64,000 nucleotides of DNA from Schleiferiaceae bacterium (lineage in GTDB: Bacteria; Bacteroidota; Bacteroidia; Flavobacteriales; Schleiferiaceae): positions 1 to 64,000 of the forward strand of contig JAURGG010000002.1 of assembly GCA_030833905.1 (NCBI GenBank). Direction: 5' to 3'. The notes below the pieces were generated by a model that saw nothing but the letters and a program-made list of their open reading frames with translations, was not told the DNA's origin and searched no databases. Shown here piece by piece: positions 18,638 through 21,174 of the stretch. The position numbers and the translations under genes are program-made. Numbering within the stretch: position 1 is the first letter of the stretch; every line of letters starts with the position of its first letter.

Positions 18638-19228
18638 CTAATTACCCACGTAGAAGTAGTTTGTTAATCGTGCCTTTTGTGCGGAATCGAAGGGAGCCAA
18701 GGCAAACACCTCGTCCCAGTTGCGCAACGGACGAACCCTACTGCGGAACCGGTGGACCGCGCGTACCTGAGGCGCCCGCCACAATGGGTGGGCATACAGT
18801 GCATCTTCTGAAATACTGTTTAGGTCGAGGGGACTTGGCGGGTACAGCAGCCAATCAAATTCCGAGCGGTTGTCCCATCGCGCGCACAGGGCGGAATCGA
18901 CACCCCCCCAACGCTCCCGATCGCGAACGAAGCCCTCTGCCTTCCACTGGGGCCACCCCTGGGCGCGCAGCCATTGGTCCGAAACCGTGTCTGAGGCAAC
19001 CACGGCCCGGGAGCGAACCATCTGTGGGGATTCCACGATGTGGCGATCCCATTTCTGATCGCGGGGCCATTGGGGTTCGTTGAACTCCGCTCGGGGCACT
19101 TCTGGAAACGAAGCCCAAATTGGCTCAGGTGCCGTTTGAATCGAGTGCCACCTGTAGTACACGAAAAGGGCGAGGAAGAACCCCGCCCATACGATGTCTG
19201 CAACCCAGGGTTTGGGTTGCCGCCCCAT
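18638..19228 (-). CDS. Helix-hairpin-helix membrane-anchored protein (ComEA/GspK-like HhH)
   Basis: The 196-residue product has one N-terminal membrane helix (DIVWAGFFLALFVYYRW, about 11-27) and then a Trp-rich, poorly conserved region. Near 130-175 it has a helix-hairpin-helix segment (PLDLNSISEDALYAHPLWRA then QVRAVHRFRSRVRPLRNWDE). This is the LDLNxA..L..hPgi pattern of ComEA-type DNA-binding or T2SS-K-like domains. Its ATG overlaps the TAA of the preceding 45-residue gene (TAATG), so translation is coupled. DNA binding outside the membrane or a structural role are both possible. Confidence 0.65.
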   Translation of the reverse strand: MGRQPKPWVADIVWAGFFLALFVYYRWHSIQTAPEPIWASFPEVPRAEFNEPQWPRDQKWDRHIVESPQMVRSRAVVASDTVSDQWLRAQGWPQWKAEGFVRDRERWGGVDSALCARWDNRSEFDWLLYPPSPLDLNSISEDALYAHPLWRAPQVRAVHRFRSRVRPLRNWDEVFALAPFDSAQKARLTNYFYVGN

Positions 19229-19365
19229 TACTCAGGGTCGTTCTGTGAAAAGGAATCCGGCTCTCCCTTAGGCGGAGTCCGAAGAACCTTAAAGAAAAAG
19301 TATGCGGTGATGACCGTAACCAAACCTTGGGTGGTGAGCATCATTGCCCATGCTGCTGTTGTCAT
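19228..19365 (-). CDS. Small MetS-like subunit next to a sodium symporter
   Basis: A 45-residue protein: MTTAAWAMMLTTQGLVTVIT, then AYFFFKVLRTPPKGEPDSF and a polar end. One membrane helix is followed by a short cytoplasmic tail with KVLRTPPKGEPD. Small one-helix proteins of this kind (MetS-type) pair with neurotransmitter:sodium symporter proteins. It starts 3 bases after the stop of that transporter gene on the same strand, and its stop overlaps the next ATG (TAATG). Size, topology and position support a real gene. The assignment to the MetS family is by analogy, not alignment. Confidence 0.75.
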   Translation of the reverse strand: MTTAAWAMMLTTQGLVTVITAYFFFKVLRTPPKGEPDSFSQNDPE

Positions 19366-19368
19366 GGC

Positions 19369-21174
19369 TTATGCGTTTTGAATTCGACGGCGGTTGGACG
19401 AGAACACGAGCACCGAAAGGAACACAAACAGTGCAACCAAGAGCAAACGCGCTAGGTGATTGTAGAAGATCTTATTGACAAAGAAGCCCGTGGCGATTTG
19501 ATCTCCGGCACGTACCACCTGCCCAGTGGAAACTGCAACTTCAATGTCGGCGGGCCACTCGTAGGCCGCGAAGCTTCCGTCCTCGGCGACAATGCGCACC
19601 GACGTGCGGTCACCCGCCCGCTGTACGTCTGCAACTCCGGCGACCTCAGATTCAAAGTAGTTGGCCCAAGCTTGACGGTTGTGTTTGATGTCCACGTTTT
19701 GAAGCTGGCCAATAATACTTGAGGAATCAAATTCCCAACCGTTGGTAATGGCTCCCTTCCAGTCGTTGCCTTTGGGCGAAATCAGGCTGAGTACGAAGAC
19801 CAACATTAAAATGGTCGGGGTAACGTACTTAAGGATCGGCTTGTAAATTTTAGGCAAGGTGATGTCGGAACCGCGGTTGATTTCTTCCCAGCCCTTGTCT
19901 ACGCCCCACACCCATGAGAAGAGGATGGCTTCGACCAGGCCGAAGAACACGAGTCCTACTGTACCAGCCCAGTAGTCGTATTGGTCAAAGACGCCTTCTT
20001 GGTAGAAGAGCACGGTAGGCATACCTACGATCAATGTGACCAGTCCAAACGACCAGGCGGCCTTGTTGAGGCTGAACTTGAACTCGTCTTGCATGAATCC
20101 GACCCACGGAGAGCCCATGGCGAGCGAACTTGTAATTCCGGCGAAGAAGAGGAGGCCAAACCACATGACGCCGGCTACGGTTCCGAGGACTGCACCCCAC
20201 TTGCCAAAAAGGAAGGGCATGGTCTGAAAGGCCATCGCAAAGCCAGCATTCTCTTTGACCCAATCTAGACCGAGGTAGCCTACAGCAATCGGAATTACGA
20301 TGCTTGCACCGAGAACGATTTCAACAAAGCCGTTCATCCAACCGGCTGCCATTGCGTTGAGGGCAATGTCGTCCTTGGGCTTGACGTAGGCGGCGTAGCA
20401 GTGAATCGTTCCCATTCCGACCGAAAGGGTAAAGAAGATTTGGCCCGCAGCCGCCAACCACACGTTGGGATTGCTGAGCGAGTCAAACTGCGGATTCCAC
20501 AAGAAGTTGAATCCGAGCATAGCGTCGCAATCGGCGCATCCAAGGGGAGCCCCAGAGTCGCCCAGGGTAAAGGCGCGGATGGCCAAGAAGACCCCAAATA
20601 TGAGCAGCAGTGGCATTCCAATTTTCGCCACGCGCTCGATTCCGCCCTCAAGACCGCGACTGAGAATCCATGTGTTGAGCGCAAGTACCAAAACGTAAAA
20701 TAGAACAGCCTCGTACGGAATCCCTGTAGTGCTGTGCCCAATGTCGACATAGCTTGTAAAGAAGTCGGCAACCTGCGACTGGCTTAGCCCACTAAACGTT
20801 TGTTTGAGGGAGTGAAAGACGTACGACATCGTCCACGACTCGATGTATGTGTAGTATGCAGCTACGGCAATATTGGTAAAGATTCCGAATACCCCGAAGT
20901 ACTTCCAAAAGCGCTTGCGCCCCATCGTGTCGAGGATGAACGGCGTGCTGTGGTCACCCCTTGAGCCACCAAAGCGGCCCGAAGACCACTCGATCCAAAG
21001 GAGCGGAATACCCAATAGAAGAAACGAAATGAGGTAGGGAATAATGAACGCCCCGCCACCGTTCTTCACGGCTTGGACGGGAAAACGCAAAAAGTTTCCG
21101 AGGCCGACGGCATTACCGGCCATGGCTAAAATGAGACCGACCCGGGTTCCCCAGGACTGTGTGTTGCTACTCAT
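19369..21174 (-). CDS. Neurotransmitter:sodium symporter family transporter
   Basis: The 601-residue protein has the NSS (LeuT/MetP) sodium-site motif WGTRVGLILAMAGNAVGLGN in helix 1 and about 12 hydrophobic segments. Two extra loops are notable. One follows helix 11 (about 470-560, SPKGNDWKGAITNGWEFDSS onward) and is a soluble lipoyl/biotinyl-like beta region with EDGSFAAYEWPADIEVAVST. The other, near 215-235, contains CADCD. It likely takes up an amino acid with Na+. A small partner gene follows 3 bases later. Confidence 0.9.
   Translation of the reverse strand: MSSNTQSWGTRVGLILAMAGNAVGLGNFLRFPVQAVKNGGGAFIIPYLISFLLLGIPLLWIEWSSGRFGGSRGDHSTPFILDTMGRKRFWKYFGVFGIFTNIAVAAYYTYIESWTMSYVFHSLKQTFSGLSQSQVADFFTSYVDIGHSTTGIPYEAVLFYVLVLALNTWILSRGLEGGIERVAKIGMPLLLIFGVFLAIRAFTLGDSGAPLGCADCDAMLGFNFLWNPQFDSLSNPNVWLAAAGQIFFTLSVGMGTIHCYAAYVKPKDDIALNAMAAGWMNGFVEIVLGASIVIPIAVGYLGLDWVKENAGFAMAFQTMPFLFGKWGAVLGTVAGVMWFGLLFFAGITSSLAMGSPWVGFMQDEFKFSLNKAAWSFGLVTLIVGMPTVLFYQEGVFDQYDYWAGTVGLVFFGLVEAILFSWVWGVDKGWEEINRGSDITLPKIYKPILKYVTPTILMLVFVLSLISPKGNDWKGAITNGWEFDSSSIIGQLQNVDIKHNRQAWANYFESEVAGVADVQRAGDRTSVRIVAEDGSFAAYEWPADIEVAVSTGQVVRAGDQIATGFFVNKIFYNHLARLLLVALFVFLSVLVFSSNRRRIQNA

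Follow-up and report, generated by a model that had tools for sequence, protein, structure and literature searches.

A 45-residue membrane protein encoded directly behind a LeuT-type symporter is a probable accessory subunit and accompanies its transporter across sampled Bacteroidota

In a stretch of 64,000 nucleotides from a Schleiferiaceae bacterium (contig JAURGG010000002.1, positions 1 to 64,000; the whole stretch is called the window below), a short open reading frame (ORF) lies directly downstream of a gene for a sodium:neurotransmitter symporter (NSS). Judged from its codon pattern, this ORF is a real gene under purifying selection. It encodes a protein of 45 residues, MTTAAWAMMLTTQGLVTVITAYFFFKVLRTPPKGEPDSFSQNDPE, and comparative sequence data together with structure models indicate that this protein is probably a single-pass accessory subunit dedicated to the LeuT-type symporter encoded just upstream. 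A preliminary description of the DNA had placed a short gene at 19228-19365, between the symporter gene and a helix-hairpin-helix (HhH) gene; the gene runs from ATG to TAA at exactly these positions. The LeuT-type identity of the transporter and the occurrence of the small gene as a companion throughout the transporter clade were not foreseen there.

The coding nature of the small ORF was assessed by comparison with its relatives. Between the window and the closest relative (locus L060) the 45 codons differ by 0, 1 and 15 bases at the first, second and third codon positions, respectively, and the rates of nonsynonymous (dN) and synonymous (dS) change are 0.01 and 0.77, corresponding to a dN/dS ratio of 0.013. 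A ratio near 1 among relatives had been named beforehand as the result that would speak against a gene, and this is not what was found. Over nine disjoint pairs of relatives with 45 codons the differences at the three positions add up to 66, 47 and 158, and six of the nine pairs have dN/dS values of 0.013-0.123. It is because of the low ratio against L060, with 15 of 16 changes at third codon positions, that we regard the small ORF as a gene.

The preliminary description had also suggested searching for small ORFs behind NSS genes in relatives. We picked 110 loci solely by similarity of the transporter (L002-L031 and L060-L139, two sets that overlap in species). One of them, L120, runs off its contig; in all 109 readable loci a similar ORF follows the transporter gene. 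The automatic pattern found 104 of these ORFs, four (L062, L116, L118, and L138) were recognised by eye, and in the remaining locus, L026, the small ORF lies 175 nt downstream of the transporter behind a repeat. The ORFs found by pattern represent 91 distinct DNA sequences, 87 of which start between -11 and +25 relative to the transporter stop codon and 52 of which start at -4, that is with an ATGA overlap. This four-base overlap is the commonest junction in the relatives (56 of 99 distinct DNA sequences). As a control for chance, a comparable ATG-started, transmembrane-like ORF of 28-75 residues was found within 25 nt at 139 of 20,000 random positions of the window.

In a census of the class comprising 247 genomes, the transporter was detected at E<=1e-60 in 52 genomes at 53 places, 51 of which were read (the fragments on G190:C115 and G174 were left out). 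A one-helix ORF adjoins the transporter gene at 42 of the 51 places and is absent next to it at nine. Among the places with a transporter at least 50% identical to that of the window the adjacent ORF is present at 42 of 44. The genomes of the two exceptions, L189 and L197 (51 and 56% transporter identity to the window), contain detached matches with E-values of 1.2e-5 and 1.6e-6, both reading as complete small ORFs. A similar ORF was also seen outside the phylum, 14 nt behind the LeuT-like transporter of a Bacillota plasmid record (L169, Acetoanaerobium). In some Bacteroidia (L127, L129, L130, and L131) a second membrane ORF of 51-53 residues directly follows the small gene, about +148 nt from the transporter stop codon.

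The co-occurrence of both genes was then scored in 395 genomes of the phylum. The LeuT-type transporter was searched for with the transporter L218 at E<=1e-110 and the small family at E<=1e-3 with either of two profiles, A1 (75 small-family members) and A2 (22 members); that all three scans covered the same 395 genomes is concluded from matching identifiers and counts. Of the genomes that carry the transporter clade 51 of 51 matched the small family, versus 1 of 344 of those without it (Fisher p 9e-64, uncorrected for kinship), and in the single genome with the small family only (G273) the match lies inside a frame of 494 residues. At most 18 candidates were scored per genome in these scans, so that weak members in the 344 transporter-negative genomes may be missed. 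Sixteen transporter-negative control genomes, in which up to 150 candidates were scored, gave no match below E 1e-3, the best being 0.00107.

Among the best 30 loci of the L218 search, whose transporters are 44-56% identical to LeuT, 23 have a member of the small family no more than about 300 nt behind the transporter gene, and many of these members show the variant pattern xxLTTxGIIFMxLAWGxI...CFxKVLK. In the other seven the member is found elsewhere in the genome (E 3.1e-19 to 1.7e-7), in one case just upstream of the transporter gene; one of these seven detached copies (G500) had entered profile building. This comparative evidence shows that the small gene accompanies the NSS transporter throughout the Bacteroidota sampled, even when the two are unlinked, in line with the partnership put forward in the preliminary description. 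Further copies have locations of their own. In four genomes of family f105 (L250, L252, L255, and L271) detached members adjoin a phosphofructokinase gene, which constitutes a second conserved location (identified with Pfam for L250 and L271, by eye for L252 and L255), and additional members in L153 and L163 lie behind a membrane ORF of roughly 40 residues and an ORF of roughly 115 residues.

All genes of the locus are on the minus strand, which the preliminary description had not stated. In the direction of transcription the order is rmlD (22179-21187), the symporter gene (21174-19369), the small ORF (19365-19228), a gene for 196 residues (19228-18638), rpsU (18601-18404), xerC (18354-17491), and raiA (17464-17153). 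The features are:

19228-19365, minus strand: small ORF of 45 residues, suggested to encode an accessory subunit for the LeuT-type symporter (ORF, codon pattern against L060, similar ORF in 109 of 109 readable loci).
19279-19359, minus strand: residues 3-29 of the small protein, predicted to form its single transmembrane helix (AlphaFold2, charge counts).
19231-19278, minus strand: residues 30-45 of the small protein, an acidic tail with the motif EPDS[YF] that is predicted to be cytoplasmic (AlphaFold2, charge and motif counts).
19369-21174, minus strand: LeuT-type sodium:neurotransmitter symporter of 601 residues (Pfam SNF 166.8 bits; LeuT as top PDB sequence match among the matches listed; Foldseek).
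19477-19668, minus strand: beta domain, residues about 503-566, inserted ahead of the last helix of the symporter (AlphaFold2 strands; RPOC_hybrid match below the cut-off).
19366-19371, minus strand: junction of the symporter stop codon and three bases before the ATG of the small gene (sequence).
19226-19230, minus strand: TAATG overlap between the stop codon of the small gene and the start codon of the next gene (sequence).
18638-19228, minus strand: short protein of 196 residues related to a longer one that has four HHH_3 stretches; as a neighbour it is judged to be outside the system (Pfam on the long forms; comparison of short and long forms).

With the symporter stop codon at 19371-19369 and the first base of the small ORF at 19365, three bases intervene; at the other end the final A of the TAA (19230-19228) is the first base of the next ATG (19228-19226). 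Both junctions had been described correctly before.

For the small protein AlphaFold2 predicts one helix comprising residues 3-29 with high confidence (pLDDT, the per-residue confidence, of 94, 98, and 95 in successive blocks of ten residues), followed by a tail of low confidence (67 and 60). This agrees with the single membrane helix and charged tail proposed earlier. The members of profile A1 are 33-56 residues long; M1 and A5 are invariant, and M9, F23, F24, V27, and L28 are found in at least 90% of the 75 members. Lysine and arginine are absent from residues 1-8 of all 75 members, whereas 214 occur in residues 25-36. From these counts and the positive-inside rule we infer that the N-terminus would face the outside and the C-terminus the cytoplasm. 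An acidic motif, EPDS[YF], is present in the tail of 52 of the 75 members. A Pfam scan of the window protein gives DUF3487 alone (E 0.042), and there is no NCBIfam match at E<=10. This 45-residue membrane protein goes unrecognised by current family databases.

The transporter encoded upstream was compared with proteins of known structure. Among the PDB matches listed, LeuT is the top match (407 bits, E 1e-120), MhsT reaches 145.7 bits, and eukaryotic SLC6 proteins reach at most 87.6 bits. In a Foldseek search with the transporter model all 50 matches listed are LeuT or LeuT-derived chains. By sequence and by its modelled fold the window transporter is therefore of the LeuT type, closer to LeuT of Aquifex aeolicus than to MhsT or the eukaryotic SLC6 proteins. 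It differs from LeuT by an extra beta domain of about 65 residues ahead of the last helix (strands in the AlphaFold2 model at 503-566), which matches the RNA polymerase hybrid domain (RPOC_hybrid) below the cut-off.

In a first tree of 61 rows LeuT groups with the partner-bearing transporters L216, L218, and L217 (supports 97/84, 99/94, and 100/93) and apart from MetS-type NSS; L218 is the transporter nearest to LeuT in this set (56% identical), and a long-branch flag was raised for L169. The second tree contains more LeuT-type rows and leaves out the rows of family f45 as well as L212 and L214. Here a clade of 33 rows including LeuT is set off from the MetS-type rows at 100/100, and the other 32 rows of this clade carry the small gene, adjacent or detached. 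The nesting of LeuT among partner-bearing transporters, considered on the basis of the first tree, was dropped, since the second tree leaves LeuT as an unresolved branch of its clade; the claim is therefore limited to clade membership. According to these trees LeuT belongs to the clade of partner-bearing transporters, and it is 44-56% identical to 30 transporters of this clade.

The preliminary description had compared the small protein with MetS-type subunits of NSS transporters. Transport by MetP needs MetS. In PMC2807442 and PMC5105988 MetS is cited as the small subunit of the methionine/alanine importer MetPS. The family is represented by the models NF033493 and PF16951 (MaAIMP_sms), with MetPS of Corynebacterium glutamicum as the known example. 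The architecture resembles that of MetS: a tiny protein of 45 residues with one helix (residues 3-29) followed by basic residues, encoded directly after the NSS gene in the window and likewise placed after it in the 109 loci, L026 being the distant case. The small family and the MetS-type ORFs align in hhalign with a probability of 93%, ungapped from residue 1 to residue 40, and the score of 32.9 was not reached in any of 150 column shuffles (maximum 25.8). The profile comparison points to a possible distant homology of the two families, which 40 aligned columns of a single helix are too few to prove; single members also match unrelated membrane families, for instance CyoA (0.0025) and PsbN (0.0044), at E-values similar to that of the best MetS match.

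Membership in MetS was not borne out. NF033493 is the NCBIfam model most often matched by the small family, yet weakly (23 of 75 members at E<=1, best 0.0022; 2 of 22 A2 members, best 0.018), PF16951 is matched by 2 of 75 (best E 0.056), and neither model finds a match in the window genome. The WGG motif present in 14 MetS-type sequences occurs in none of the 75 A1 members and in 1 of 22 A2 members; the window protein lacks it and has the acidic tail. Because the window protein matches neither model and has no WGG motif, we describe it as MetS-like rather than as a MetS. The transporters differ as well. The NSS partners of MetS-type proteins group with MhsT (14 examined, first tree), whereas the small family accompanies LeuT-type NSS. 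The MetS models also have matches in the phylum, in 17 of 247 genomes at E<=0.01, six of them above the curated cut-off; 14 of the 17 loci lie beside an NSS gene, and the other three, all weak, showed none. Six genomes (G434, G481, G504, G565, G569, and G576) match both kinds of small protein at separate places, four of their MetS matches being below the curated cut-off. Single-pass partners are also known for eukaryotic SLC6 transporters, namely collectrin and ACE2 with B0AT1 and SIT1. These systems share the principle of a one-helix partner on a transporter of the NSS fold, but the partners are far larger and carry ectodomains, and no homology is implied. A literature search, with subscription papers mostly outside its reach, found no report of a small subunit for LeuT-type NSS, and PMC4227106 does not mention leuT, a transporter or a small ORF.

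If the small protein is the accessory subunit of the symporter, we infer co-transcription, the topology given above, physical binding and an effect on transport. Symporter and small gene would share a transcript, with the ATGA stop/start overlap joining them in most relatives. The small protein would insert with its N-terminus outside, leaving the basic flank and the acidic tail in the cytoplasm, and would pack alongside the 12 helices of the symporter as an additional, thirteenth one. There it may stabilise, localise or tune the symporter, as MetS serves MetP.

Several results weigh against this reading. In the remaining three of the nine pairs of relatives, the distant ones, dN/dS rises to 0.31-0.55. 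The adjacent ORFs of L198 and L199, two of the 42 in the census, fit the A1 profile weakly (15.2 and 12.7 bits). Family f45 has no small gene beside its NSS in seven of seven genomes, the transporters being 37-41% identical to that of the window; no A1 match below E 0.2 was found in the seven genomes and none at E<=1 in the three that were also searched with A2, which reflects either a genuine loss of the gene or an absence of longer standing. The f45 transporters (L201-L206 and L215) are LeuT-like and fast-evolving. The count of 51 of 51 genomes arises partly by construction, since many of these genomes supplied the NSS-adjacent ORFs for the profiles, and the genomes are not independent of one another; the negative side (1 of 344) and the detached copies are free of the former problem. 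When partner-bearing and partnerless NSS were compared, no transporter helix emerged as a docking face: the conserved columns lost in five partnerless f45 sequences are scattered and make up 20-50% of the conserved columns in the transmembrane helices TM2-TM11 with no helix standing out; in TM1 no conserved column was counted, probably because many rows are truncated there. Furthermore, LeuT has been studied as a lone protein, and according to PMC5105988 it takes up alanine in proteoliposomes when reconstituted alone, so a partner is unnecessary for its basic transport in vitro. Finally, extra family members adjoin a sulfate permease gene (L266, 836-964, minus strand) and lie near a dicarboxylate symporter gene (L267, 1204-1404, minus strand; both neighbours assigned with Pfam), and therefore the helix may not be specific for NSS.

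The extra copies beside these two genes, the detached copies near the phosphofructokinase gene in several genomes, and the activity of LeuT alone in liposomes would all fit a general single-helix membrane factor, for instance an insertion or folding factor or a degradation adaptor, that serves several transporters and lies behind the NSS gene for convenience of expression. Such a factor would not be expected to be nearly absent from genomes without the NSS clade, and we consider it unlikely. The tight junctions on both sides, together with the ATGA overlap in the relatives, could alternatively mean that the ORF is a translated regulatory spacer which couples the symporter to the next gene and whose peptide is without function. 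The conservation of the peptide, with two invariant and five further highly conserved residues, the very low dN/dS between near relatives, and the persistence of the gene when detached from the symporter make this highly improbable. That the ORF is spurious, as its shortness and the lack of recognition by Pfam and NCBIfam might indicate, is contradicted by the codon-position pattern of 0/1/15 and by the similar ORF in every readable locus, and we regard its probability as negligible.

The small protein could also be the partner of the downstream HhH protein. The TAATG overlap in the window speaks for such a connection, and 48 of 90 distinct loci have an HhH gene downstream. The other 42 loci possess the small gene even though no HhH gene was detected behind it (tblastn with the proteins of the window and of L119 as the two queries, which may miss distant ones), and the presence of the small gene tracks the transporter; an HhH partnership is very unlikely. 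For the downstream protein of 196 residues Pfam gives no match. In L119 and L139 its place is taken by longer proteins with four HHH_3 stretches, the long form having 360 residues, and a few loci show weak matches between short and long forms; for these two reasons the window protein is probably a shortened HhH-related form. The HhH assignment made earlier is thus likely to be right as to kinship, but the window copy is shortened. The coupling to a DNA-binding-type protein, which the preliminary description had found odd, proved unspecific, and a specific function of it was rejected: the small gene occurs with or without the HhH gene, and at 18 of 49 loci rpsU is no more than 4 kb away. On these grounds the adjacency looks like inherited gene order, optional and without a shared function. 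In this lineage, with the HhH-type protein shortened to 196 residues, rpsU is also much closer, at 771 nt past the transporter in the window compared with 2.3-3.0 kb in several long-form relatives.

LeuT serves as reference for the neurotransmitter-transporter fold. The open disputes about it, concerning a second substrate site, the slow turnover and the effects of detergent, stem from work on the lone protein. We consider it quite possible, without leaning towards it, that the symporters of the LeuT clade are two-component systems and that the Aquifex genome encodes a cognate one-helix partner of LeuT. If this is true, the many structures and kinetic studies of LeuT describe the transporter without its native subunit. 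Should a small helix subunit be the norm in the clade, the disputes would become testable on the native complex. The small proteins would extend the principle of MetS to another branch of the NSS transporters, and as a widespread gene family missed by current models they would be useful to annotation pipelines.

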